Assembly (NCBI GenBank): GCA_000802095.1
Contig: JUEB01000013.1
Location: 186,001-250,000, forward strand
DNA: 64,000 bases
DNA from: Peptococcaceae bacterium BICA1-7
Lineage (GTDB): Bacteria; Bacillota; Desulfotomaculia; Desulfotomaculales; Desulfocucumaceae
Direction of reading: 5' to 3'
In this document: in pieces, positions 10,414-23,645 of the stretch
How positions within the stretch are numbered: the first letter of the stretch is position 1
How the letters are laid out: each line of letters opens with the position of its first letter
The notes under the pieces: model-generated
Databases searched by the model: none
What the model was told of the DNA's origin: nothing
What the model saw: the letters and a program-made list of their open reading frames with translations, nothing else
Program-made: the position numbers and the translations under genes

Positions 10414-11193
10414 ATGACTGATGAACTTACCGAGCTTTTTGACCAACTATATCGCGATAACTATGTCAAGGTATTCCGGCTAGCCCTGGGACTCACCCAC
10501 AATCCCAATGACGCGGAAGATATAACCCAGGAAGTTTTTGTACGGGCTTTTCGCTCCTATCAAACCTTTCGTGAAGAAAGCTCTTTTTTTACATGGATAT
10601 ACCGGATTACCGTCAATGTGGCCAATGATTACATGAAACAAAGAAGTAAACTGCCCGTCTACGAAATTGCCGAAGATGCAGGTTGCTCTGTTGATGATTT
10701 GGCTGATCCCCATCCTGATTACAGCCCGGAAACCAAATTAATGATCAATGAAGTAATGCGGGTCTGCATGGCTGCTTTCACTGAATGTCTGCCCGTCAGC
10801 CAAAAAAAAGTTTTCTTCTTGGCAGTAGGATTAGGTCTGCCGCACAAAATTGTGGCCGAAATATTGGATTGTTCGGTCAGTTCGGTGAAATCGTCGCTGC
10901 ACCGGGCTAAAAACAGATTGATTGGCTACATGGAAAGCAGGTGCCAATTAGTTAAAGAATCAAATTCCTGCCGTTGTGAGCAATGGATTAAACGTGGCAT
11001 TTCGCGAGGATGGATAACTAAAGAGTGTATAGCCAACCCTCTGCCCAAAATTACCATTCCGGCCGGGGTAAAAATATACATGTGGGATTTGCGGGATATA
11101 TACAAAAATGTTTACCTGGCAGACAACGATGAAGTATTGGCAAAGTTTTTTAAAGAAGGCTTTGCCCAAAAGAAATGGGCTACTTTTTCTTAA
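10414..11193 (+). CDS. ECF-type RNA polymerase sigma factor with cysteine-bearing C-terminal extension
   Basis: 259-residue extracytoplasmic-function sigma factor. Region 2 spans about residues 10-80 (NPNDAEDITQEVFVRAF and FFTWIYRITVNVANDY). Region 4 spans about 120-175, with the helix-turn-helix LPHKIVAEILDCSVSSVKSS. Beyond it is an extension of about 80 residues containing CRCEQWIKRG and a further Cys in ITKECIA, then a segment not obviously related to sigma factors. Typical ECF factors stop near 180 residues. No anti-sigma gene is adjacent, so control may be built into the tail (inference). ATG 10414 follows GAGGCG. The downstream neighbour is a Cys-rich DUF3795 gene 64 bases away, perhaps in the same transcript. 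Confidence 0.88.
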   Translation: MTDELTELFDQLYRDNYVKVFRLALGLTHNPNDAEDITQEVFVRAFRSYQTFREESSFFTWIYRITVNVANDYMKQRSKLPVYEIAEDAGCSVDDLADPHPDYSPETKLMINEVMRVCMAAFTECLPVSQKKVFFLAVGLGLPHKIVAEILDCSVSSVKSSLHRAKNRLIGYMESRCQLVKESNSCRCEQWIKRGISRGWITKECIANPLPKITIPAGVKIYMWDLRDIYKNVYLADNDEVLAKFFKEGFAQKKWATFS

Positions 11194-11705: not shown

Positions 11706-11743
11706 AAACAACTCAACTTTCCAGACCGAAAGTTGAGTTGTTT
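11706..11743. terminator. Bidirectional terminator between convergent genes
   Basis: A 16-bp perfect stem (11706-11721 with 11728-11743, core ACAACTCAACTTTC) and a 6-base loop, with A/T-rich flanks on both sides. It separates the rightward DUF3795 gene from the leftward GT2-GH130 gene. Confidence 0.75.
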
Positions 11744-11777: not shown

Positions 11778-14700
11778 TTAAATATCTGTACCATAATTGT
11801 TCTTCCCTCCAACCTCCTGCCTGACGGATTCCGGTATCAGATCGCCGACCCGGCCGGTGGCAAGGCATATATGGGTATCTGCAGCGCCATAATAAACCAG
11901 TATTTGGTCATCGGCGTCCAGCACTTCCTTGTCATTAGCCGGCACCGCGCCGCAGGTGAAAACAACATTGGGCACCCAGCTCTCCCCTTCTTTTCCTATT
12001 TCATACCCGGTTTCGGGAGAGAGGACCGGATTGGGAGAACGGTAGATCAGGCGCTCCGGATTGTCGAGGTCGATCAGTACAACGCCCAGACGATACACCC
12101 TGTTGCGGTCGACACCGTGGTAGATAAGCAGCCAGCCGTATTTGGTCTTGATGGGCTGGGAGCCCGCTCCTATTTTTAAGGAGTCCCACATCCATCCCGA
12201 ACGCGGACCCAGGATGATGGAGTGCTTTTTTTTGGGCGCCGGAAACTCCAGCTTATCCAGGTGCACCATCCATATGCTTGGCTCTATCCGGTGGTAAATA
12301 ATATATTTCCCATTAATTTTTTCTGGAAACAGTATGGCGTCCTTGTCCCAGATGTCCTGGAAAGCAAGGCCCTTTCTTTCCCATTTGTCAAATCTTTTGT
12401 TTAACAGGTCCTCCAGCCCTATGGCAGCGGCCGAAACCTGTGCAATGACACCGTCGTAGGCAGTGTAAAGCATATATATCCTGTTGTCGAATATGGCTAC
12501 CCTCGGGTCTTCGACACCTTTTATTTCCGTCCTGTCCTGTGGCACAAACACAGGCTCCGGAAGTCTCTCCAGCACTTTGTAGCCGTCCGTCACGGCCAGC
12601 CCGATCCGCGACACATCATCATCTCCGTGCGCCCTGTAGAGCAGGTAGACCCTGTCTTTTACCCGGAAGGCAGCCGTGTTTAAGACGTACTTGCTTTCCC
12701 ACGGGTGCTCCTTTATTGGACTCAGCATAGGATTGCCCGCATACCTGACGAGGGGCTTTGCCGGCGGGTAATCCTGAGACTCCTGCACCACTACGGTCAC
12801 ATCTTTGGGCCTTATTCCCAAAAGGACATCAATAAGGTTTTCGCTGGCCCTGCCCTCACCTATGAGCTGGATCACCGTTTTCATGATTTCTCCGGGGTCG
12901 TAGCCCAGTTCTTCATATATTTCCTCAAGGAAATCGTGGTTGAACCACTTCTCCTCGACATGGCTGGAAAGCGAGGTAGGAATACCCTTTCCGCCCTTGT
13001 AGCTATAGCTGGCCCAACTCCAGACCGAGCACGGCAGGAATGTGCCGTCGGCAAGAACCTGGCTCAGGCCGTAGCCATTACACATAATGTTTATCAGCCG
13101 GGCCTTTTCGTTTTGGCCGACATCCGCCAGCCTCTGTGACAGCGCCCGAAACTGGCTGATTAGCGCACGGTGATGGAAGTTTTCAAATAAATTGTGTACG
13201 GAAAAGGCAATGGTTTCGTAACGCCCAACCAGGGAGTTGAGTATCTTGCCACCCAGGTTTTTCCTCTCTTTGGCGTAGGTTCTCCAGAGGATGTCGTAAT
13301 TTTCGGCCATCATAATATGCCTGGCCACAAAGAGGCAGAAGCGCAGCCTCGGATAGTCCCCTCCCACACCTTTATTCAGAGGCCCGACCACAATCCTGGA
13401 GGCGATCTTGTTGAAGTCGGAGACATTTCCCAGCTTCACCGTGCCGTTAAGTACCTTTGCACCCAATATGATGGGCTTGATCTCCACCTCACCCATTCCA
13501 TCCGGCCCCAAATTATCCATCATCCACAAAAGTGACCTGTCCCCGTACTTCCGGGTCTCAACCAGGTTGGCCAGGCTGGCGGCATCCCTGACGTCCATTT
13601 TTTTAATGAGATCCCTGGGATTCTTGCATCCCGCAGGGATCATCACATTGAGCGGCGGAAAACGGAGCAACATCTCCCTTATGACCTCATCTTTTATGGA
13701 AAAAATCATGGGAGAGTGGAACAGCCGGAAAATGCCGTCTATTACCTGCCCAATTCCCTCTTCGGTGTATAAGTCCCCCGGCAGCAGCTCTTCCATAGTT
13801 TTTTCCAGTTCGCTCATGAATTCTTTCATACACACGATTATCGTTTTGTAATCAGCGTTTTCCGACGTCCCCAGCCCGTCGCGGAGAAAGCTGCTAAACG
13901 CTTCCTGATAGCGGGACTGGAGGCGGTGGAACATTTCTTCCGACGAAACAACCTTGCCTTTACGCCCCTCTATTTTTTTGGGCAGCACGGTGGGTATGCC
14001 TGGTATAAATTCCAGGTAGTGGGCCGGTACGAGGGGCGGCTTCGTTTCTAGATCCTTTTGCTCCCACAACAGCATAAAGTGATCCCTCAATCTTAGAAAG
14101 TCTTTTCTTTGTTCTTCTTTGGCTAAAGACACCTCACTTGAGACAATAAAGTCGGTATCAACGCTTTTAATGCCTTCCAATTGTTTTTCCACGGACTGAA
14201 TGTTCCCAATGAAGCTGGACACCCTCCCGTTGAAGGCAAAAGTGAGTTCGTCCAGGAGATCGTCGCTGCACACACCAGTGACAAACCAGTACTTAAACAG
14301 TATGCGATATACTATATCGGCCCATATTTTTCCTTCTATTATTAGCTCTTTGTCCGTTACCGGCCGGGTGTCTTTGCTGCCTTCGTAAAGGTGGTCGTAG
14401 TAGGAGGTGTCACAAAGTATTTTGTACTGGCTGTAACTGTATCTGAACTGGGGGTCCCGGATAGACGGGGTAGGCTTATAGGGCTTATCATTGGTCCTGC
14501 CGCCATAAATATCGGGCGTCCTGATGATTAACCTGCTGCCGGTCCAGTAATCCTCATCCCTCTTTATACATTCAAACAATGACCTGGCGTTTTCTTTAAA
14601 AATATAGTTTAGTTTTTCAATAGAGATTTCCCCCAGCTTAGTGCCCAGCTCCACCTCGCAAATCTTTTTGTTCCAGCGCATAGCCCGGCTAACCAGCCAG

Positions 14701-15362
14701 GGGTCGATTCCGAACCCCCACGTGGTGTCAGTCCAGAATTTTATATCGGCGCAAAAGTCCTCCACGGTGTCGTGGGATATGGCATAAACACCGCTCAAAG
14801 TCCCCTTGACGTTGTACCCGTAAAATACCTCCAGCAGTTGGGCCGTGAACAGGCTTCCCAAAAGGTTCTCAAAATAGTGCCTATGGAAAGATGTCACCAC
14901 CAAATCATATTCTTTTCTGATGGGCTCTATAAGGCGCCTGATCCAGTCGGGCTGCAGCCCTCTGCCTTCCTCCCGCACCAGGTCGGCCGCAAATATAACC
15001 GCATCGGCCTCCAGCATATTGGCTATCTCCAATATCGCCCTTATACTGGCCCCTCTGCCATTGCTCCCGGGCTTCATTAAAAATTCCAGGTGGGGGGCTT
15101 TTAAATCCAGACGCCTGATGGATGCCAGCGTTTCTGTTCCTACGGGGTCCCCCACGCAGATGATCAGAGACTTGCTCATTTCCTGAAGGCCGGCCAGCCC
15201 TTCATCCAACACTTTCAGCACTTCGGGCAGGATATCCTTTTCATTATAGAAAGGGATGCCGATTACCACATTGACTTCATTAAACAACTTTGCCTTTTCA
15301 ATATACTCATTGATGCTCTCATTAAAAAGTGCCTCTAAATCATTCAACCGCTCGACGCCCAT
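11778..15362 (-). CDS. Fusion of GT2-like glycosyltransferase and GH130 mannoside phosphorylase-like domain
   Basis: 1194-residue cytoplasmic protein (no signal peptide). Residues about 25-330 resemble a GT-A fold transferase, with VVIGIPFYNEKD, the nucleotide-sugar region PGSNGRGASIRA, and AADL in the DXD position. The layout recalls mannosylglycerate or glucosylglycerate-type synthases. A helical middle of about 500 residues is unrecognised. Residues 866-1180 form a GH130 five-blade propeller: RYAGNPMLSP at its start, the catalytic-acid segment GVEDPRV (Asp 952), and IGAGSQPIKTKYGWLLIYHGV. GH130 enzymes phosphorolyse beta-mannosides to mannose 1-phosphate. ATG 15362 follows GGAGG at 8 bases. 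It lies at the end of a leftward run with another GH130, next to a GDP-mannose synthesis operon. Transferase substrate and product are unknown. Confidence 0.85.
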   Translation of the reverse strand: MGVERLNDLEALFNESINEYIEKAKLFNEVNVVIGIPFYNEKDILPEVLKVLDEGLAGLQEMSKSLIICVGDPVGTETLASIRRLDLKAPHLEFLMKPGSNGRGASIRAILEIANMLEADAVIFAADLVREEGRGLQPDWIRRLIEPIRKEYDLVVTSFHRHYFENLLGSLFTAQLLEVFYGYNVKGTLSGVYAISHDTVEDFCADIKFWTDTTWGFGIDPWLVSRAMRWNKKICEVELGTKLGEISIEKLNYIFKENARSLFECIKRDEDYWTGSRLIIRTPDIYGGRTNDKPYKPTPSIRDPQFRYSYSQYKILCDTSYYDHLYEGSKDTRPVTDKELIIEGKIWADIVYRILFKYWFVTGVCSDDLLDELTFAFNGRVSSFIGNIQSVEKQLEGIKSVDTDFIVSSEVSLAKEEQRKDFLRLRDHFMLLWEQKDLETKPPLVPAHYLEFIPGIPTVLPKKIEGRKGKVVSSEEMFHRLQSRYQEAFSSFLRDGLGTSENADYKTIIVCMKEFMSELEKTMEELLPGDLYTEEGIGQVIDGIFRLFHSPMIFSIKDEVIREMLLRFPPLNVMIPAGCKNPRDLIKKMDVRDAASLANLVETRKYGDRSLLWMMDNLGPDGMGEVEIKPIILGAKVLNGTVKLGNVSDFNKIASRIVVGPLNKGVGGDYPRLRFCLFVARHIMMAENYDILWRTYAKERKNLGGKILNSLVGRYETIAFSVHNLFENFHHRALISQFRALSQRLADVGQNEKARLINIMCNGYGLSQVLADGTFLPCSVWSWASYSYKGGKGIPTSLSSHVEEKWFNHDFLEEIYEELGYDPGEIMKTVIQLIGEGRASENLIDVLLGIRPKDVTVVVQESQDYPPAKPLVRYAGNPMLSPIKEHPWESKYVLNTAAFRVKDRVYLLYRAHGDDDVSRIGLAVTDGYKVLERLPEPVFVPQDRTEIKGVEDPRVAIFDNRIYMLYTAYDGVIAQVSAAAIGLEDLLNKRFDKWERKGLAFQDIWDKDAILFPEKINGKYIIYHRIEPSIWMVHLDKLEFPAPKKKHSIILGPRSGWMWDSLKIGAGSQPIKTKYGWLLIYHGVDRNRVYRLGVVLIDLDNPERLIYRSPNPVLSPETGYEIGKEGESWVPNVVFTCGAVPANDKEVLDADDQILVYYGAADTHICLATGRVGDLIPESVRQEVGGKNNYGTDI

Positions 15363-15486
15363 GAATAAAACCTCCGTTAAAAATTTATTTTACGCCAGAA
15401 GCCTTATTCTTGCGCTCCCCGTTGCCGGACCACCCGTTTTTGAGCAGTGTCAGCCAAATAATCAATATCCCGATTTATGTTTGCTT

Positions 15487-17757
15487 TCACAGGGCCGTTT
15501 TTCGGTCCAGTATTTTAAATATGTTAACATCTTTCAGGCACGTTATGGCCTGGGCAAAGGCCAACACCGATTCTGCGCCGCTGTTAGCGTTGCTGCCAGT
15601 CTCGGTGAGACCGTCCAGAGGATAGTCTTCCTTCAGGTTATACACCGGCACTCCCAGTCTGTTTTTGCCAAAAAACCAGCTGAAGGCCTTATTCGCCAGG
15701 TCGCGGTAGTTTTTGTCATTGGTCTGCCGCAGGGCCTCGCAGTATGCTTCCACCAGGCAGCCAATCTCTACGGGCTGCTGATCAAAAAAAGCCCTCTCCT
15801 CCCCTAAAACAAGCCAGCCCTTGTTGCCCACCAGGTCGAAGTAAGTACCATTATACTGTGTTCTGGTCAGAAAGTTTAAAGTCACCAATGCCGTTTCCAG
15901 ATAAACTTTTTCCTTAAGAATACTGTGCGCCATCATCAGAGCAAAGGGCAGCTTGGCATTGGAATAGGTAACAGAGGGCTCAAACCAGTCCCAGTGAGGC
16001 CTTTTATTATCATTGTAGAGTCTGACCAGGTAGTCTGCCCCTGCCCTGAGCAGCTCGCCGGCCTTCGGCGCCTCAGTGAATTTTTTAAGGTATTCGGATA
16101 ATCCACAAATGCCGTAGGCCACCGCCTTGGGATAAGTGGACAGCGGTATCCCCGCTTGCCGGCCGTCTATGGCCCGGTCGAATACTTCCTTGGACAGCGT
16201 AGCCACAGAGGGATCCGTGCTCAGAGCGGCGGCGCTGCCAAGGCCCATCAATACGCGGCCAAAGGTGTCATCGCCACCGTCCTCGTCCAAAATCCGCCGG
16301 TCATAGCCCACAAAATTATGGAACCGCCCATCCTTTCTCTGTACATATAGTATGAAGGCCATGTATTTTTTGGCCAGCTGATAATAACCGGGCTTCTTGT
16401 CAAAGCGGGCCACCTTCATAATTATCCCCAGCGCCCTCCCGACATCATCAGCGGAATAGCCGTGCTTCAGGTCGGGAATGCCGTGCTTGGTGTGCTGGAA
16501 GATGCCGGTATCATCAGTCATGCGCTCAAACATACTATACAGATTGCGTCTTCTCAGATAATCCCGGCTGCTTTTGTAGACCACGCCTATTCTCTGCAGC
16601 TTTTTCATCGAGAATTCTTTGTAAACCTCTTTGAACAAGCCGTGGTAAAGCTCGGCCACCCTGGACCAGATCATCGATCGCCCGTATTCGTATGCGGCCA
16701 GGCGCGTCTTCCGCATGTCCTCCTGATGGGAAAAAACCCCGCTCAGGGTCCTGGCCAGAGCTTTTGGGTTATTGAAGGGCACCAGGTGACCACGGCCTTC
16801 GGCAAGCACTTCCTGGGCGTAGTGATAGGGGGTGGAGACCACCACCTTGCCCAGTGCCACAGCATAGGCCAGCGTCCCGCTGGTTATCTGCTCCTGAGAA
16901 TGATAGGGGGTTACATACACGTCGGAGGCGCTTATGTAATTATACAGCTCTTCGTTCGTCGCGAATTTGTCGATAAACAGCACATTATCTTCCAGTTTAT
17001 TTTCCTGAGTCAATTTCTGGAGGCTCTCCCGGTACCTTTCCCCGTGAATCTTAGCCACTTCCGGGTGGGTTTTACCAAGTATGACGTACAGCAAATCGGG
17101 ATGGTTGCGGACCACTTCGGGAAGGGCTTCCAGAACCAGCTCAAACCCTTTCCCGGGGCTCAGCAGGCCAAAAGAAAGGAGCACAAGGCGACCGGCCAGG
17201 CCCAGTTCCTTTTTGAAAGGCTCCGTCTCGACAAAAGGAAGGTCGGGCACACCGTGCGGTATCATCACTATTTTTTCAAGGGGGACGTAGTATACTTCAT
17301 TAAGTATTTCGATAGCTTTGTTGCTCATTACTACTACCCGCTGGGAGCGTTGGATAACCTCGATGAGGGAGGTATAATAACCAAGGGTGGGCTGTTGAAG
17401 CACAGTATGGATGGTTGTTACCACCGGTTTTTTCAGCTTTTCCAGCAGCCTTGCAATATGGCGTCCCTCAGGGCCGCCAAACAGGCCGAATTCGTGCTGG
17501 AGGTTGACCACCTGCAGGTCAGCTGCATTAATGTCCCCGGCGGCTCTGGTGTAATCGGATACTTTATTTTTGTCAAAGAAAAAATTGACTTCCTGGGGAT
17601 ATTCACCCGAGGTAAGTCCACCTACTGCTACAATTTTACCGGCTGATGCATAGAAATTCTCATACGAAGTGAATAAATTATGCGTAAAAGTGGCGATTCC
17701 GCACTCTTTTGGGATATATGAACTAATAAAACAAGGATTTATTCCTTTTTGACGCAA
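15487..17757 (-). CDS. GT4 glycosyltransferase fused to an (alpha/alpha)6-toroid glycosidase-like domain
   Basis: 756 residues. The N-terminal half (about 1-375) is a GT-B transferase: ECGIATFTHNL, the HEFGLFGG region, and nucleotide-sugar contacts in FGLLSPGKGFELVLEAL and ITSGTLAYAVALGKVV. The C-terminal half (about 385-745) is helical with repeated aromatic-Gly motifs such as GYSADDVGRALG, DEDGGDDTFGRVLMG and SNANSGAESVLAFAQA. This pattern is typical of six-hairpin toroid enzymes. The TTG at 17757 follows GGAGGTGA with suitable spacing. No signal peptide is seen. It is flanked by GH130 genes on both sides. The toroid half could hydrolyse, epimerise or simply bind the glycan; I cannot assign a family. 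Confidence 0.82.
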   Translation of the reverse strand: MRQKGINPCFISSYIPKECGIATFTHNLFTSYENFYASAGKIVAVGGLTSGEYPQEVNFFFDKNKVSDYTRAAGDINAADLQVVNLQHEFGLFGGPEGRHIARLLEKLKKPVVTTIHTVLQQPTLGYYTSLIEVIQRSQRVVVMSNKAIEILNEVYYVPLEKIVMIPHGVPDLPFVETEPFKKELGLAGRLVLLSFGLLSPGKGFELVLEALPEVVRNHPDLLYVILGKTHPEVAKIHGERYRESLQKLTQENKLEDNVLFIDKFATNEELYNYISASDVYVTPYHSQEQITSGTLAYAVALGKVVVSTPYHYAQEVLAEGRGHLVPFNNPKALARTLSGVFSHQEDMRKTRLAAYEYGRSMIWSRVAELYHGLFKEVYKEFSMKKLQRIGVVYKSSRDYLRRRNLYSMFERMTDDTGIFQHTKHGIPDLKHGYSADDVGRALGIIMKVARFDKKPGYYQLAKKYMAFILYVQRKDGRFHNFVGYDRRILDEDGGDDTFGRVLMGLGSAAALSTDPSVATLSKEVFDRAIDGRQAGIPLSTYPKAVAYGICGLSEYLKKFTEAPKAGELLRAGADYLVRLYNDNKRPHWDWFEPSVTYSNAKLPFALMMAHSILKEKVYLETALVTLNFLTRTQYNGTYFDLVGNKGWLVLGEERAFFDQQPVEIGCLVEAYCEALRQTNDKNYRDLANKAFSWFFGKNRLGVPVYNLKEDYPLDGLTETGSNANSGAESVLAFAQAITCLKDVNIFKILDRKTAL

Positions 17758-17923
17758 AAATATTCACCTCCGTGTTAAAATATTTATTAATACCAGGACT
17801 CCTTCCTGCTTCGGGCATAATTCCCGTATTTATTTCATAAATTCACATATTAACCATGTAACTTAAATTATACAACATAACAAAAGGTTATACAATGGAC
17901 TGCCGGTTTTAGCGGACCTGCAG

Positions 17924-18871
17924 CTACATGGGACTCCTTGAGCTTTCCAGGCACATGGCAGCAAGATCACTGATGTTGGCGGCGCCGACGCACATAACTT
18001 TGTCCGCGCCTCCCCAGTAAATCTTTACCGTGCCGTCCTCCTCGGGGACAGCCCCGCAGGTAAAGACCACGTTGTGTACGTAACCCGTAATCTCCCAGGG
18101 ATCTTCAGGCTGGAGAATCCACTCGTCGGCAACACCCAGTATTTTCGACGGATCATGCAGGTCGTGGAGAATCACTCCCAGCCGGTATACAGCCCCGTCC
18201 ATCGTGCGAAAGACACCGTGATAGATATTCAGCCAACCCTTTTCAGTCTTGAAAGGTGTGGCGCCGGGGCCTATCTTCATTTCATCCCAGTGGTAGCCGG
18301 CCGGTTTAACAAGGACTTTTGAGTCGCCCCAGTGAACCAGGTCGGGTGAATAGGAAATCCACATAGACCAGGGGCTGATTTCGGAATGGGGGCGGTCCAG
18401 CCGGACGTAACGCCCGCCAAACCTCTGCGGGAAGAGCACCACGTTGCGCAGGTCCGCCTGGGTGATCATTGAAATCCGCTCGACGGATAAAAAGTCTCTG
18501 GTCCTGGCCAGGCCGATTCTCACCCCGTGCCTGGAATAGGCGCTGTAGGTGATCAGAAAATCCCCGTCAATCTGGCAGATGCGCGGATCCTCGATGCCAT
18601 ACTCCTCATACTCGCCCCAAACACCGTCCCTCAGCGGGGCCATGAAAGGCTCGGGCCGTACTTTAAATGAATAGCCGTCTGCACTTTCAGCCAGACCCAA
18701 AATGGAGCGGCCATTGAAGAGGTGTGAGCGAAAAACCATAAAATAGCGGCCATCTGTTTTCACCACACCCGCGTTGTGAACGGTGGCCACAGGGTAGGGC
18801 ACATCGTCCCTGGTCAATATCGGATTCCCGGCGTACCTCTGGACAACCGGCCCCATCTTTTTAGGGCTCAA
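17924..18871 (-). CDS. GH130 beta-mannoside phosphorylase homologue
   Basis: 315-residue single-domain GH130 protein, typical length. It shows RYAGNPILTR at the N-terminus, the catalytic-acid loop GIEDPRI, a phosphate/substrate segment KIGPGATPFKTEKGW followed by NIYHGV, and VVFTCGAVPE near the end. Characterised relatives reversibly phosphorolyse beta-1,4- or beta-1,2-mannosides, releasing mannose 1-phosphate. I prefer the TTG at 18871, placed 8 bases after GGGAGG and overlapping the upstream gene's TGA by 4 bases, which suggests translational coupling; TTG 18877 and ATG 18856 are alternatives. Linkage specificity is unknown. Confidence 0.88.
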   Translation of the reverse strand: MSPKKMGPVVQRYAGNPILTRDDVPYPVATVHNAGVVKTDGRYFMVFRSHLFNGRSILGLAESADGYSFKVRPEPFMAPLRDGVWGEYEEYGIEDPRICQIDGDFLITYSAYSRHGVRIGLARTRDFLSVERISMITQADLRNVVLFPQRFGGRYVRLDRPHSEISPWSMWISYSPDLVHWGDSKVLVKPAGYHWDEMKIGPGATPFKTEKGWLNIYHGVFRTMDGAVYRLGVILHDLHDPSKILGVADEWILQPEDPWEITGYVHNVVFTCGAVPEEDGTVKIYWGGADKVMCVGAANISDLAAMCLESSRSPM

Positions 18872-19908
18872 AAGCAAAACCTCCCTGTATTTGTACTTTT
18901 TTTACCGATAATTTTATGATAAACGCCCAAATAATCCTCCACCATGCGCTCTCTTGAAAATCTCTTCTCCACTATCTTCCTGCACTTCCGGCGCGACACC
19001 GCATCCAGGCTGCGCACCGCCTCTGCTGCGGAACAAACGTCGCCCACCAGGAAACCGTTGGCCCCGTTTTCTATTATCTCCGGCATGGAGCCCCTGTTGA
19101 AGGCCACCACCGGAGTTCCGCAGGCGCCAGCCTCCACAACAGAGAGCCCGAAGGGCTCACTAAAATTTATTGGGTGAAGCAACGCCCTCGCTCCTCCAAG
19201 CAGCTCATTTCTAAGCTCCGGCCCCGCGACACCCGCATACCTGACCCTGACACCGTCGAGGTGGGGCTCGACAGCCGATCTGTAATAATCACTGTCCTGG
19301 ATAACACCCGCCAGAATCAGCCTCATACCGGTCTGCCTGGCAATTTGGACAGCCTCGGCAGCCCCCTTGTCATGGTGAATGCGGCCGAAAAAAAGCAGAT
19401 AGTCCCCTGGTGTTTCCTGAAAAGTAAAATTCTCAAGGTCGATCCCGTGGTAGACAGTGCCTATATAGCTGAGCTCCGGCGATCGGTCAGCGTTGCTTAT
19501 AGATACGTAGTAAGTCTTTTGGTTGTATTTTCTGTATACAGGAAGTATTTTGGGTGATGAAAACCCATGGATAGTGGTAAGTACCGGGGTGTCCGTCAGA
19601 CCTGAATAAGTGAGGGGCAGAAAATCAAAATTATTATGGATTAAATCGAAATCCCCAGCCCTTTCAAACAGCTCGGATATGTGTAGACACTCCCAGACCT
19701 TTGGGTCAAGGGTCTTGTCCTCCTCGTAGGGCCTCGGCGCGATAGCGTGGAGCTTCGCCTGTGTTACGGAGTCTGCCGTGGCGAAAAGAGTCACATCAAT
19801 CCCTCTGGCGGCCAGTCCCTCGGTCAGCAGTGAAACCACCCGCTCCCAGGGACCGTACCCCAGCGGGGGAGTCCTCCAGGCTATGGGAGAAAGCATGGCT
19901 ATCTTCAT
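18868..19908 (-). CDS. GT4-family glycosyltransferase
   Basis: 346-residue GT-B retaining transferase. It begins MKIAMLSPIAWRTPPLGYGPWE, a glycine-rich acceptor loop seen in this group. It then shows VYHGID, FGRIHHDKGAAEA and the donor-binding EPFGLSVVEAGACGTPVVA with the conserved E-X7-E glutamates. The ATG at 19908 follows GGAGG. It is first in the leftward mannose-glycan operon and is coupled to the GH130 gene by a 4-base overlap. A GDP-mannose donor is suggested by the divergent GDP-mannose genes only (inference). Confidence 0.88.
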   Translation of the reverse strand: MKIAMLSPIAWRTPPLGYGPWERVVSLLTEGLAARGIDVTLFATADSVTQAKLHAIAPRPYEEDKTLDPKVWECLHISELFERAGDFDLIHNNFDFLPLTYSGLTDTPVLTTIHGFSSPKILPVYRKYNQKTYYVSISNADRSPELSYIGTVYHGIDLENFTFQETPGDYLLFFGRIHHDKGAAEAVQIARQTGMRLILAGVIQDSDYYRSAVEPHLDGVRVRYAGVAGPELRNELLGGARALLHPINFSEPFGLSVVEAGACGTPVVAFNRGSMPEIIENGANGFLVGDVCSAAEAVRSLDAVSRRKCRKIVEKRFSRERMVEDYLGVYHKIIGKKSTNTGRFCF

Positions 19909-19965
19909 CTAAAACCTCCAGCCAATTTTTATTATTTTTGCTATTTATATGTACTTCTATTAATT

Positions 19966-19997
19966 ACAGGAATTTCCTGTATTATATATGTTATAAT
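19966..19997 (+). promoter_or_regulatory. Perfect palindrome and -10 box between divergent mannose operons
   Basis: ACAGGAATTTCCTGT at 19966-19980 is a perfect 15-base palindrome around a central T. A TATAAT box lies at 19992-19997, so the palindrome covers the spacer/-35 area of a rightward promoter that would drive the guanylyltransferase gene. No good -35 is visible, which fits an activator- or repressor-controlled promoter. Confidence 0.5.
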
Positions 19998-20042
19998 ATA
20001 ATTTTATGGAATATTTATTTATTATTGGAAGGGGGGAGTACT

Positions 20043-21116
20043 GTGCCTTTTGCAGTTATTATGGCTGGCGGTAGAGGAGAAAGGTTCTGGCCGCGGAGCA
20101 GAATGGCAAAGCCAAAGCAATTTTTAAACCTCATCGGCGAGAAAACAATGCTGCAGCTGACCGTAGAAAGGATCGAAGGACTGGTCGGAATATCAGACAC
20201 CTATATCGTGACCGGTTCGGATTTTAAAGACACCATTCTGGAACAAATCCCCAAACTGCCCGAAGAAAACATCATTATCGAGCCGTTTGGCCGGGACACG
20301 GCCGCAGCCATAGGACTGGCCGCCCTGGTCCTGGGGCAAAAAAAACCCGGGGAGGTCATGATTGTTTTGCCGGCCGACCATTATATCGGCAACATGCGCA
20401 AATTTCACGAAGTATTAAGAAGCGCAGTGGCCACCGCAGGCCTGGGAGACAAAATGGTCACCCTGGGCATCACTCCCCACAGTCCTGAAACCGGGTACGG
20501 CTACATTCACCTTGGCGAGTTGACTAACACCTTTTCCAGAACACCTGTCTACCGGGCCGTCCGCTTCCTGGAAAAGCCCAACTACGCCCGCGCTCTGGAG
20601 TTCCTCTCCAGCGGGGACTACCTCTGGAACAGCGGAATGTTTGTCTGGAGGATCGACACCATTCTTGAAATGATAAAAAAACACATTCCCTCGCTTGCAG
20701 AGAGGCTTAAGGAGATCGAAGACACCCTCGGAACTGACCAGTACCAAAAAACGGTTAAAAAAGTCTACTCGGAACTACCGAAGGTCTCCATAGATTACGG
20801 CATAATGGAAAGGGCCGACAACGTTTTAGTCATTCCCTGCGATTTCGGGTGAGACGACATCGGGAGCTGGACCGCTCTTGAGAGATTCGTTGAAAAGGAT
20901 GAACTCGGCAACGTCCTTCACGGGGAGGGAGTCTTGCTGGATACGGAAAACACCTATGTTGTCACCAATAAAAAGACCGTGGCGCTGTTAGGAGTTAAAG
21001 ACCTGATCGTTGTAAACGACAATGACAGCCTGCTAATCTGCCACAAAAGCCGGGCCCAGGAGATAAAAAAGGTTGTGCAGGCTTTGAGTGCTAAAGGGTT
21101 TAACAGTGTTCTATAA
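20043..21116 (+). pseudogene. manC: Mannose-1-phosphate guanylyltransferase interrupted by in-frame UGA
   Basis: The frame from GTG 20043 (GGGGGAG upstream) gives the nucleotidyltransferase signature MAGGRGERFWPRSR, a PKQF motif, VLPADHYI and a normal fold up to codon 269. Codon 270 (20850-20852) is TGA where the family has Trp in DFGWxDxGSW. The same frame continues without further defects for 87 sense codons (DDIGSWTALERF through a normal C-terminus) to TAA at 21116, giving 357 residues if read through. The enzyme makes GDP-mannose from mannose 1-phosphate and GTP. Either this is a fresh nonsense mutation or sequencing error (TGG to TGA), or UGA is read through. The truncated product would lose conserved metal and sugar-binding residues. 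Confidence 0.85.
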
Positions 21117-21155
21117 AAATGTTCATATAAAATTAATATACAAAGGAGACAGCAA

Positions 21156-22538
21156 TTGACGTTAATTAGCCCGCAAATTTTCCGCCAGTATGATATTCGC
21201 GGCGTTGCTGAAAAGGACTTGTCCAATGAAACCGTGGAACTGCTTGGAAAGGCTTTCGGTACTTATGTTAAGGAATCCGGCTCCCGCAAAGTTTTAGTGG
21301 GCAGAGACAACAGGCTCAGCTCCGACCGGCTGCGGGACGCCATTATCAGAGGTCTTCTGTCCGCTGGCTGTGACGTCACCGATATAGGGCTGGTTGTCAC
21401 ACCAATGCTTTACTACTCCAGGGTTCACTTCGGCATAGACGGGGGAATTATGATCACCGGCAGCCACAACCCACCGGATGAAAACGGCTTCAAGCTCGCT
21501 TTGGGAAGCGGGACCATTTACGGTGATGAGATTCAAAAGCTAAAAGACATTATGATTTCAGGGAATTTTACTTCAGGCTCGGGTCGGCTGGAAAAACTGG
21601 ACGTGGTACCCCCCTACCTTGCTATGCTCAAAGAAAAAATCCAACTGGGCCCGAGAAAGTTAAAAGTTGCAGTGGACTGCGGCAACGGCACGGCCTCGCT
21701 GTTTGCCCTGCAAATCCTGGAGGCGTGGGGCTGCGAGGTAATACCGCTGTACTGCGAATCAGACGGCTCTTTCCCGAACCACCAGCCGGACCCGGTCAAA
21801 ACGGCAAACCTGGCAGAGCTAAGAAAAGCCGTTTTAGAAAAGGGTGCCGATGCTGGCCTCGCCTTTGACGGCGACGCTGACAGGATCGGCGTGGTGAACG
21901 AGTCGGGCGGAATTATCTGGGGAGATTTGCTGATGTGCCTGTACTGGCGGGAGATCATGGCCAATCACCCCGGGGCCCAGGCAATCATTGAGGTTAAGTG
22001 CTCTCAGTCGCTGGTGGACGAGGTTGTCCGGCTGGGGGGCAGGCCATTCTTCTACAAAACGGGTCACTCTCTGATCAAGGCCAAGATGAAGGAAATCGGG
22101 GCAATCTTCACCGGAGAGATGTCCGGGCACATGTTCTTCGCAGACGAATTCTACGGCTTTGACGACGCCTTTTACGCAGCCGGCCGCCTGCTGAGGATTC
22201 TCTTACGCTCCAAAGAGCCCCTCTCTAAAATGCTGGCTGAAGTACCCAAATATTACTCTACGGCTGAAACCAGGGTCCCCTGCCCTGACCAGGACAAGTT
22301 TACGGTGGTAAAGGGGCTGGTGGAGCTATTCAAGCGCCAATTCGAGGTCATCGACGTTGACGGGGTGCGGGTGCTCTTCGGTGACGGCTGGGGCCTGGTC
22401 CGGGCGTCAAACACCCAGCCTGTTCTGGTAGCCCGCTGCGAGGCCAAGACCCCTGAAGGGCTGCAGAGGATCTGCGACACCATGCAGAAAGCCCTGTCCG
22501 GGTTTTCTGAAGTTGAAAAATTCAATTGGGAGTACTAG
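21156..22538 (+). CDS. manB: Phosphomannomutase/phosphoglucomutase
   Basis: 460-residue alpha-D-phosphohexomutase interconverting sugar 6- and 1-phosphates, full length. The N-terminal FRQYDIRG, the phosphoserine loop MITGSHNPP, the metal loop DGDADRIG and sugar-binding EMSGH are all present, as is the C-terminal phosphate loop around RASNTQPVL. The start is a TTG following AAAGGAGACAGCAA. It lies 39 bases after the guanylyltransferase and 27 before the isomerase, in one operon converting fructose 6-phosphate to GDP-mannose. Confidence 0.93.
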   Translation: MTLISPQIFRQYDIRGVAEKDLSNETVELLGKAFGTYVKESGSRKVLVGRDNRLSSDRLRDAIIRGLLSAGCDVTDIGLVVTPMLYYSRVHFGIDGGIMITGSHNPPDENGFKLALGSGTIYGDEIQKLKDIMISGNFTSGSGRLEKLDVVPPYLAMLKEKIQLGPRKLKVAVDCGNGTASLFALQILEAWGCEVIPLYCESDGSFPNHQPDPVKTANLAELRKAVLEKGADAGLAFDGDADRIGVVNESGGIIWGDLLMCLYWREIMANHPGAQAIIEVKCSQSLVDEVVRLGGRPFFYKTGHSLIKAKMKEIGAIFTGEMSGHMFFADEFYGFDDAFYAAGRLLRILLRSKEPLSKMLAEVPKYYSTAETRVPCPDQDKFTVVKGLVELFKRQFEVIDVDGVRVLFGDGWGLVRASNTQPVLVARCEAKTPEGLQRICDTMQKALSGFSEVEKFNWEY

Positions 22539-22565
22539 AAAGTACTGATTATTGGGAGGTACCAA

Positions 22566-23645
22566 ATGATTGACCGGGAAAAAATACTTAACGACGCGGA
22601 GTACATGTACCAGGCCGATACTAAGGAGATGTTTCAGTCCCTGGCCGCGCTTGCGGGCCAGTGCAATACAGCCTGCTGGGATCTTACCGGAAACGTTGAC
22701 CTGCCAGCTGTGGAGGCAATATCCAACGTAGTGGTGACCGGGCTGGGAGGATCGGCAATCGGGGGAGACCTGTTGCGGATCTATTGCCTTGATAAATGCC
22801 AGGTGCCTGTGGTGGTAAACAGAAATTACGTCATGCCTGAATTTGTCGGTAAGGATACCCTGGTCTTTGCTGTAAGCTATTCCGGCAACACCGAGGAAAC
22901 CATCAGCGCCTATCTGGACGCCAGGAAAAGGGGCGCCACCATTATAGCCATCACCACCGGCGGCAAACTGAAGGAAATGGCTGATGGTGACGGAGCAACA
23001 GTTATACCTGTGCCTGGAGGTATATCACCCCGATCTGCTTCCGGTTTTCTTTTTATACCCACCCTTCGCATCATGGAAAAGCTGGGTTTTTTGTCCGGCA
23101 TTGCCGAAGAGGTTGAGAAGCTGGTGGACCACCTGAAAAAACTGCACGAAAATCTTAAGCCGGAAATACCGGTGGAAAAAAATTCAGCCAAACAGATGGC
23201 CTTGAAACTTTATAACCGTATACCGGTCATCTGGGGGTCCAGCGGCACCACGGAGGTGGTTGCCCAGAGGTGGAAGGGACAGATAAACGAAAATGCAAAG
23301 TCGCCTGCCTACTGGAACGTTTTCCCGGAGCTAAACCATAATGAACTGGTGGGCTTTAGATTTCCGGAAGCCCTGCTAAAGCAGCTGCACATTGTAATTT
23401 TAAGGGATGACCAGGACCACCCAAGGGTGCAAAAACGCATTGAAATATCCAAGAACGTCATAAGCAAGACCGTTGCCGGCATCACCGATGTCCGGGCCAG
23501 CGGAGGAGATCTCCTGGCCCGGACGTACTCCCTTATTTACAGCGGAGATTACACAAGTGTGTACCTGGCCTTTCTATATGGTGTAGACCCCGGCCCGGTG
23601 GAAGCAATTGATCACCTCAAAAATGAACTGGCAAAGGATTATTAA
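22566..23645 (+). CDS. Bifunctional phosphoglucose/phosphomannose isomerase
   Basis: 359-residue SIS-domain isomerase of the archaeal/bacterial bifunctional PGI/PMI type. SIS motifs are GLGGSAIGGDLLR and VSYSGNTEETISAY; the second half has SSGTTEVVAQRWKGQINENAK and ELNHNELVGF carrying likely catalytic Glu and His. ATG 22566 follows GGGAGG. It interconverts fructose, glucose and mannose 6-phosphates and thus feeds the mutase and guanylyltransferase upstream in the operon. Confidence 0.9.
   Translation: MIDREKILNDAEYMYQADTKEMFQSLAALAGQCNTACWDLTGNVDLPAVEAISNVVVTGLGGSAIGGDLLRIYCLDKCQVPVVVNRNYVMPEFVGKDTLVFAVSYSGNTEETISAYLDARKRGATIIAITTGGKLKEMADGDGATVIPVPGGISPRSASGFLFIPTLRIMEKLGFLSGIAEEVEKLVDHLKKLHENLKPEIPVEKNSAKQMALKLYNRIPVIWGSSGTTEVVAQRWKGQINENAKSPAYWNVFPELNHNELVGFRFPEALLKQLHIVILRDDQDHPRVQKRIEISKNVISKTVAGITDVRASGGDLLARTYSLIYSGDYTSVYLAFLYGVDPGPVEAIDHLKNELAKDY

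Follow-up and report, generated by a model that had tools for sequence, protein, structure and literature searches.

The window, by which we mean the whole 64,000-nucleotide stretch of DNA that was analyzed, contains a cluster of genes arranged in two divergent rows (11778-23645), and the ORF ends and family matches found here agree with those proposed in an earlier, sequence-only reading of the same DNA (Table 1). All of the genes named in that reading are present, except that the mannose-1-phosphate guanylyltransferase is split by a TGA codon under the standard code. The terminator-like hairpin is a consensus match from a scan that found 14 sites where shuffles led us to expect 16.1, and no tRNA was found in the window.

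Table 1. Features of the gene cluster and of the FUS protein, with positions in the window
Feature	Position	Strand	Basis
Intrinsic-terminator-like hairpin, 16 pairs, T-rich tail, directly 3' of FUS	11706..11743	-	consensus match only
FUS, 1194-aa fusion protein	11778..15362	-	ORF, families, conserved architecture, structure model
FUS residues 867-1181, GH130, beta-1,2-mannoside phosphorylase type (predicted)	11820..12764	-	phmmer, VIA, residue conservation
FUS residues 430-866, conserved middle domain (~435 aa)	12765..14075	-	structure model, homologue alignment
FUS residues 31-429, GT-A domain, predicted mannosylglycerate synthase (GT78) fold	14076..15272	-	VIA-align
GT4 domain (residues 1-385) and putative alpha-helical toroid (residues 386-756)	15487..17757	-	PF00534 E 3.5e-20
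GH130b, second GH130	17924..18877	-	phmmer 193 bits to 1vkd
GT4b, GT4 glycosyltransferase	18868..19908	-	Pfam
Divergent intergenic region separating two transcription units	19909..20042	.	ORF ends, sequence
Mannose-1-phosphate guanylyltransferase frame with in-frame TGA 20850-20852	20043..21116	+	PF00483 first part, PF22640 second part
Phosphomannomutase/phosphoglucomutase	21156..22538	+	NF046027 492.5 bits (cut-off 600, below); PGM_PMM I-IV over cut-off
Bifunctional phosphoglucose/phosphomannose isomerase (SIS type)	22566..23645	+	NF006426 533 bits over cut-off; PF10432

FUS joins a GT78-fold GT-A domain, a middle domain and a GH130 domain in a conserved fusion, and since this architecture recurs in other genomes, it is not a product of chance. 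The transferase and GH130 domains had been recognized before, but the conserved domain between them was overlooked. Conservation was followed in a set of 52 homologues, obtained from 90 ORF hits that were reduced to 61 by removing duplicates and lengths outside 1050-1320 aa and then passed through a 93% identity filter (alignments A3 and A4 hold 51 and 47 of the 52), and mean pairwise identity is lowest in the transferase part (0.39), intermediate in the middle domain (0.49) and highest in the GH130 part (0.70). The model of full-length FUS is of middling confidence (pLDDT 72, pTM 0.43), with block pLDDT values mostly of 60-90 in the transferase part that fall under 50 at about residues 290-340.

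In VIA-align, the transferase domain superimposes on mannosylglycerate synthase (2y4j_B) with a Z score of 30.6 and an rmsd of 2.8 over 348 residues of a 377-residue chain, which is nearly its full length, at 14% identity, compared with a Z score of about 18 for glucosyl-3-phosphoglycerate synthase. The model thus predicts for the N-terminal domain of FUS the fold of a GDP-mannose-using enzyme. At the level of sequence, the Pfam GT2 match is weak and below cut-off, and a profile of 47 FUS transferase sequences reaches the GT2 structure sll0501 at E 4.5e-6, along with further polyprenyl-phosphate sugar transferases, while mannosylglycerate synthase was not reached at E<=10 in the PDB sequence search. 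The DxD motif of GT-A enzymes binds metal; D127, the last Asp of a candidate DxD, is kept in 46 of the 52 homologues and absent in six, and the first position of the motif is variable.

The middle domain is well modelled when taken alone (pLDDT 88.6, pTM 0.87), and FUS thereby brings to light a domain without an assigned fold. Foldseek returned zero matches for this model at E<=0.001, the best VIA Z score is 7.6 (a DUF885 protein) and the next 5.4, which leaves the fold match unclear, no Pfam family is common to more than two of 51 members or convincing in any of them, and the PDB search gave no convincing sequence relative (best E 0.12). Many of the VIA rows are zinc metallopeptidases, but a zincin was rejected given these low Z scores and the empty Foldseek result, and also given that HExxH occurs in just one of the 52 middle domains and that no His position is kept in at least 47 of them.

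The C-terminal part of FUS belongs to the GH130 family (PF04041, 180.6 bits, cut-off 26), although it scores below the NCBIfam cut-offs of the named equivalogs, including that for beta-1,2-mannobiose phosphorylase (244.6 bits, cut-off 450). Its closest relatives are two Thermoanaerobacter beta-1,2-mannoside phosphorylases, 7fip (phmmer 207.6 bits, VIA Z 29.1) and 9fj8 (200.5 bits, Z 29.6), with 42-43% identity over the structural alignment and the five-bladed propeller fold in common. Asp952, Lys1007, Arg1025, Lys1063 and His1082 are kept in all 52 homologues, and so is Glu951 directly before the catalytic Asp952, a position at which GH130_1/2 enzymes are described as having Tyr, not Glu (PMC4599007). 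In all three aligned enzymes of the Thermoanaerobacter type, the columns of R1025, K1063 and H1082 likewise hold basic residues, two of these enzymes having Arg where FUS has K1063, and we assign the three as candidates for phosphate binding, in place of the Glu pair of mannosidases. Lys1007 is common to the Thermoanaerobacter-type enzymes and is Arg in the other four, RN-type, sequences aligned. Beta-1,2 specificity is conferred by Lys199 of BT3780 (PMC4599007), of which Lys1007 is probably the counterpart, judging by spacing and by that account, BT3780 itself lying outside our alignment. Taken together, the domain bears the signatures of a beta-1,2-mannoside phosphorylase, and phosphorolysis is its predicted activity.

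The neighbors of FUS on the same strand are further transferases and a second GH130. The GT4 and toroid domains form a single fused ORF in the window and two adjacent ORFs in other lineages; the term "toroid" comes from the sequence-only reading and would fit a weak GH127 match, and the profile of the toroid alignment A5 reaches 7tem at E 2.1e-12. At other FUS loci, relatives of GT4b form fusions with a mannose-6-phosphate isomerase cupin (PF01050 E 5.7e-34 at L032). GH130b has as its best PDB match TM1225 (1vkd), a beta-1,4-mannooligosaccharide phosphorylase (PMC8950772), and carries Arg-Asn in place of Lys-Asp, so that the beta-1,2 lysine is missing. It is also rarer, occurring at 5 of 33 FUS loci, and the earlier proposal that both GH130 proteins act on one polymer is not borne out.

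The rightward row had been read as a complete path from fructose 6-phosphate to GDP-mannose, and the gene families are as proposed, but an SIS isomerase of the type in the window was found at only one of 54 non-duplicate homologous loci, that of the sister species. Three isomerase types occur at FUS loci, namely, the SIS type, type I and a cupin that is either fused to GT4b or alone, and the mannose-activating genes as a whole recur in differing arrangements. The TGA within the guanylyltransferase is codon 270 counted from the GTG at 20043, is followed by an open frame up to a TAA at 21114-21116 and is also found in the sister species. A second, uninterrupted guanylyltransferase match lies on another contig of the same genome (C14), and both matches score below the family's curated cut-off. 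A genome-wide change of TGA to Trp was not adopted, as the FUS, selA and glgA matches in this genome have no inner stops. The hairpin 3' of the TGA is too weak to be named a SECIS element (z -1.7; 10 sequences among 200 shuffles fold equally well). That the window gene may be a plain pseudogene was considered and not adopted. Searching viral contigs for the pattern of the codon motif gave 14 stretches and was uninformative.

Among 299 sampled genomes of the phylum, 38 carry FUS, the window's own included, and flanks were examined for part of these. At 33 non-duplicate loci with at least 5 kb on each side (a set that omits L054, which has no middle-domain hit at threshold, and L057), the neighbors include the GT4c partner at 27, the toroid at 26, the guanylyltransferase at 18 and phosphomannomutase at 14, so that within the stretch examined GT4c is missing from 6, the toroid from 7 and the guanylyltransferase from 15, at one of which a hexapeptide-type nucleotidyltransferase takes its place. 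Over all 54 non-duplicate loci, many of them cut by contig ends, the respective numbers are 35, 36, 24 and 20. A guanylyltransferase at E <1e-80 is encoded in 31 of the 37 other FUS genomes, and in the remaining six, all of family f39, no convincing one was found genome-wide. The order and orientation of the linked genes vary among loci.

These data bear on what FUS may be for. The nearly full-length fold match to mannosylglycerate synthase would suit a small solute, with the GT78-like domain making mannosylglycerate or a close relative and the GH130 domain trimming or salvaging beta-mannosyl decorations, no polymer being formed. We consider this unlikely, as GT4 and the toroid, the most constant partners, go beyond what a disaccharide needs, the second-best relative of the GH130 domain is an oligomannan phosphorylase, and the transferase profile did not reach mannosylglycerate synthase by sequence. 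A cluster of GH130, guanylyltransferase, GT4 and ABC importer genes in Thermoanaerobacter was interpreted as GDP-mannose salvage (PMC4264767), and one may likewise suppose that imported beta-mannosides are phosphorolysed to mannose 1-phosphate and converted to GDP-mannose here, the transferases serving other glycans. A locus with an unfused GH130, a nucleotidyltransferase, GT4c and a toroid in one row (L131) would fit such a route. However, no ABC importer or other transporter and no LacI-type regulator was found among the cluster genes of the window, whereas ABC-type and LacI-like ORFs (from N-termini read by eye) accompany a near relative of 7fip at L123, a locus of the same family as L131 (f81), and the transferase fusion together with the adjoining phosphomannomutase and isomerase genes would point to synthesis. 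Salvage is an explanation in which we place little confidence, and less than in a small solute.

FtsE/FtsX-like ORFs, again recognized by eye from their N-termini, lie within 5 kb of FUS at seven loci (L094, L095, L097, L102, L103, L114 and L120), and the transferases might accordingly be imagined to build a surface or spore-associated mannan whose chain ends are controlled, or whose fragments are recycled, by GH130. Against this, the proteins of the cluster appear to be soluble: no membrane helix is apparent in the six uninterrupted cluster proteins (maximum 19-residue mean hydropathy <=1.52, the guanylyltransferase lying outside the scan), with signal peptides assessed solely via the hydropathy scan and the N-termini, and neither a lipid-carrier transferase nor a flippase was found among the cluster genes. 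Of all the alternatives, an envelope or spore glycan seems to us the least probable.

From the computed architecture, the folds predicted for both end domains, the active-site residues and the gene linkage, we infer a donor, an acceptor, a linkage, a direction, a product and a physiological role for a cytosolic mannoside cycle that is soluble and has FUS at its center, and we think that such a cycle has slightly less than an even chance of being correct. Mannose-6-phosphate isomerase, phosphomannomutase and guanylyltransferase would supply mannose 1-phosphate and GDP-mannose, the GT78-like domain would transfer mannose from GDP-mannose to a small, perhaps glycerate-like, acceptor with retention (alpha) to give a primer, and the GT4 enzymes, one of them tied to the toroid, would build on this primer. 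Within FUS, the GH130 domain could then reversibly add and remove beta-1,2-mannosyl units with mannose 1-phosphate and phosphate, and since this reaction is reversible, mannose would be recovered as mannose 1-phosphate without ATP. The end product would be a beta-1,2-mannosyl oligomer or polymer that stays in the cytosol. A cytosolic mannose cycle had been suggested from the DNA alone; the GH130 signatures, the fold of a GDP-mannose-using enzyme and the recurring mannose-activating genes speak for it, while a single polymer shared by both GH130 proteins finds no support.

Nor did we find support for a reserve in place of glycogen, as the window's organism itself has a glycogen synthase and the negative association between FUS and this enzyme vanishes at the level of families. 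Glycogen synthase (TIGR02095 over cut-off) occurs in 9 of the 38 genomes with FUS and in 152 of the 261 without it (p 9e-5), but counted by family the figures are 5 of 11 and 67 of 112 (p 0.52). Our results lead us to speculate, as a rather doubtful extension of the cytosolic cycle, that Peptococcaceae- and Syntrophomonas-type anaerobes possess a mannogen-like system whose product, a beta-1,2-mannan or an oligomannoside, is soluble. In such a system, GT78-like priming and GH130 extension or mobilization would reside in one polypeptide, the middle domain would be a new carbohydrate-acting or chain-holding fold, and the origin would be independent of GT108. If the cycle exists, one protein would both synthesize an internal mannoside and recover it, and beta-1,2-mannoside phosphorylases would gain a testable physiological home. 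FUS and the adjoining mannose-activating genes hint at an unrecognized internal mannose store or solute in many anaerobes, and ATP-free recovery of a sugar phosphate could be useful to those that are energy limited.

The gene set has a partial precedent, although it had been thought to match no described bacterial pathway. The Thermoanaerobacter cluster Teth514_1785-1796 is described as comprising a guanylyltransferase, GT4, two beta-1,2-mannoside phosphorylases, GH5, two hypothetical proteins and an ABC transporter, and according to that account no potential source of 1,2-beta-oligomannan had been identified in Thermoanaerobacter (PMC4264767). A guanylyltransferase and GT4 adjoin GH130 in the window too, but the Thermoanaerobacter GH130 enzymes are separate proteins that come with an ABC importer, whereas the window has GH130 fused to a GT78-fold and an unassigned domain, phosphomannomutase and isomerase genes and no importer in the cluster. 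On the transferase-GH130 fusion, we recognized no paper, by title and abstract, among the matches listed from open-licence PMC. 9fj8 (Teth514_1788, 1,2-beta-oligomannan phosphorylase) and 7fip (Teth514_1789, beta-1,2-mannobiose phosphorylase) share with the FUS domain the fold, the catalytic Asp, the candidate phosphate-binding basic residues and the lysine; in FUS these belong to a domain within a large fusion, with a predicted activity. Mannosylglycerate synthase (GT78; 2bo4/2y4m) likewise resembles FUS residues 31-429 in predicted fold, the sequence profile of that domain did not reach it, and the FUS domain is fused to two others.

Mycobacterial polymethylated polysaccharides are glycerate primed and are made with a GT-A glycosylglycerate-type primer enzyme and a GT4 elongase, with glucose where our hypothesis has mannose, and no methyltransferase was noted in the window cluster. 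The mannogen system of Leishmania (GT108) uses GDP-mannose. A single-sequence phmmer search with FUS gave 18 PDB matches at E<=1, and none of them is a GT108 chain (6Q50 is a GT108 entry; PMC8950772). If our hypothesis holds, FUS and its partners would nevertheless share with Leishmania mannogen an intracellular beta-1,2-mannan under the control of a phosphorylase (PMC8950772).

A model of the full-length 1194-residue fusion protein FUS, built from 22 sequences (pLDDT 72.1, pTM 0.43), structurally matches mannosylglycerate synthase over residues 31-429 (Z 30.6, 14% identity), with glucosyl-3-phosphoglycerate synthase next (Z ~18). At its other end, residues 867-1179 and 866-1177 match two Thermoanaerobacter enzymes, the oligomannan phosphorylase 9fj8 (Z 29.6, 42% identity) and the mannobiose phosphorylase 7fip (Z 29.1, 43% identity), respectively. 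The middle domain gave a confident model alone (51 sequences; pLDDT 88.6, pTM 0.87), but neither Pfam and PDB sequence searches nor structure comparison with Foldseek and VIA gave it a clear relative.

The GH130 residues E951, D952, K1007, R1025, K1063 and H1082 are kept in 52/52 non-redundant homologues; glutamates replace the phosphate-binding basic residues in hydrolytic GH130 members, according to PMC4599007. The same paper states that Lys199 of BT3780, conserved in two Thermoanaerobacter proteins, likely confers beta-1,2 specificity, and we infer that K1007 is its equivalent. This column reads KD in three Thermoanaerobacter-type enzymes and RN in three proteins of the GH130b type (the second, stand-alone GH130) and one GH130_1-like protein. 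Because FUS has the KD-type K1007, its GH130 domain reads as a beta-1,2 phosphorylase, whereas GH130b, with RN, does not. The nearest match of GH130b is TM1225, a beta-1,4-mannooligosaccharide phosphorylase according to a table in PMC8950772. GH130b and the GH130 domain of FUS are the genome's only PF04041 matches at E<=0.001. Mean identity among FUS homologues is 0.39 for the transferase, 0.49 for the middle and 0.70 for the GH130 domain; since the transferase is more variable and its D127 is absent in 6/52 homologues, it may be weakened in some copies.

Genes of the FUS cluster in the window
Feature	Position	Unit	Basis
FUS	11778-15362	leftward	ORF + family searches
GT4-toroid protein	15487-17757	leftward	ORF + family searches
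GH130b	17924-18877	leftward	ORF + family searches
GT4b	18868-19908	leftward	ORF + family searches
Guanylyltransferase frame	20043-21116	rightward	ORF + family searches
Phosphomannomutase	21156-22538	rightward	ORF + family searches
SIS-type phosphoglucose/phosphomannose isomerase	22566-23645	rightward	ORF + family searches

The divergent units are separated by a 134-base gap, and a 16-pair terminator-like hairpin lies 3' of FUS, such sites not being in excess across the region. An ECF-type sigma factor with an additional C-terminal stretch (10414-11193) lies ~0.6 kb past the end of the leftward unit. A hydropathy scan of the six uninterrupted cluster proteins revealed no apparent membrane helix. 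Because the enzymes appear soluble, GDP-mannose is supplied and a GT78-fold transferase and a phosphorylase share one chain, the simplest reading is a cytosolic mannoside primed from GDP-Man, whose beta-1,2 part would be extended or withdrawn according to the Man1P/phosphate balance; its primer, linkage, length and role are all putative. Rival products are a small solute or an envelope or spore glycan. The sequence-only reading had proposed a reserve; against this count the organism's glycogen synthase and the failure of a negative FUS-glycogen synthase association to hold at family level.

The guanylyltransferase carries an in-frame TGA (20850-20852, codon 270) inside a conserved motif, where 20 of 21 homologous loci have tryptophan and one, the sister species L023, also has TGA. 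Over the 87 codons that follow, 11 synonymous and 3 non-synonymous changes separate the window from L023 (Ks 0.21, Ka 0.015), a pattern improbable without selection (p 1.7e-5, simple binomial; 2.5e-4, milder expectation) that gives signs of purifying selection 3' of the TGA. The genome contains selA, as well as an uninterrupted second guanylyltransferase copy. Selenocysteine or read-through may occur at this normally tryptophan position; the interruption may reflect read-through, recoding, two cooperating fragments or a late change that is shared.

FUS-length matches occur in 6/60 relatives and FUS in 38/299 phylum genomes (own genome counted in both), the latter taking matches that extend well past GH130, with G267, G295 and G137 partial or in pieces. 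Five genomes (G157, G348, G255, G243, G119) hold two copies, and locus L028 a tandem pair (L028:8210-17861). A named-genome scan gave 35 loci, one (L057) with a GH130 match only and 34 with FUS, several truncated at contig ends; 33/34 are marked metagenome-assembled, with titles mainly of Peptococcaceae, Pelotomaculum, Desulfotomaculum and Syntrophomonas type. The window's FUS shares 95% identity with that of L023 (titled Actinobacteria) and 82% with that of L046 (titled Deltaproteobacteria); both records have the same gene order where covered, and these titles look wrong. Proteins of 413-661 aa akin to the FUS transferase domain only (22-24% identity) occur at L110, L111, L112 and L113, adjoined by LacI-like ORFs in L110 and L113.

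Neighbors are given as raw counts, uncorrected for background and under bit-score thresholds set by this analysis, for 33 non-duplicate loci whose flanks reach 5 kb or more on both sides. The commonest are the GT4 partner GT4c (27/33) and the alpha-helical toroid (26/33), which are fused in the window type and encoded by two separate ORFs in several others, followed by guanylyltransferase (18/33, plus one locus with a hexapeptide-type nucleotidyltransferase), phosphomannomutase (14/33), GT4b (12/33), GH5-like (6/33), GH130b (5/33), and type I (3/33) and SIS (0/33) isomerases. Besides the divergent window type, gene orders include co-directional guanylyltransferase-phosphomannomutase-FUS and GT4c-toroid-FUS. 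Mannose-6-phosphate isomerase takes three forms at FUS loci: SIS in the window, type I adjoining FUS in L116/L024 and others, and the PF01050 cupin, fused to GT4b relatives (L032:13588-14952, L091:7006-8364) or unfused (L108:5608-5973). Guanylyltransferase matches at E<1e-80 occur in 31/37 FUS genomes (own excluded), none of them, nor the window's frame, reaching the family cut-off; the six without belong to family f39. A toroid gene and the guanylyltransferase sit no more than 5 kb apart in G080 and G123 (f39) and in G335 (f133), with FUS elsewhere. In FUS-free genomes, toroid genes adjoin stand-alone GH130 genes (G160:C42, G317:C57, G070:C10, G240:C37); the link between toroid and GH130 thus extends beyond the fusion. 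ORFs reading like FtsE and FtsX lie within 5 kb of FUS at L094, L095, L097, L102, L103, L114 and L120.

One of the closest known systems is the Thermoanaerobacter cluster, described in PMC4264767 as a guanylyltransferase, a GT4, two beta-1,2 phosphorylases, a GH5, two hypothetical proteins and an ABC transporter. That paper proposes a salvage role, and salvage of imported mannosides is likewise a rival for the FUS cluster. Likenesses to the Thermoanaerobacter cluster are seen at L123, where a close 7fip relative is found with an adjoining second GH130 and ABC-like and LacI-like ORFs, and at L131, with the row GH130-nucleotidyltransferase-GT4c-toroid. By sequence, FUS lies outside GT108, no chain of which is among its 18 PDB sequence matches (E<=1). 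The association of GT4, GDP-mannose and GH130 is thus already published in part (PMC4264767); what differs from the cluster as described there is the fusion of GH130 with a GT78-fold domain and an unassigned domain.
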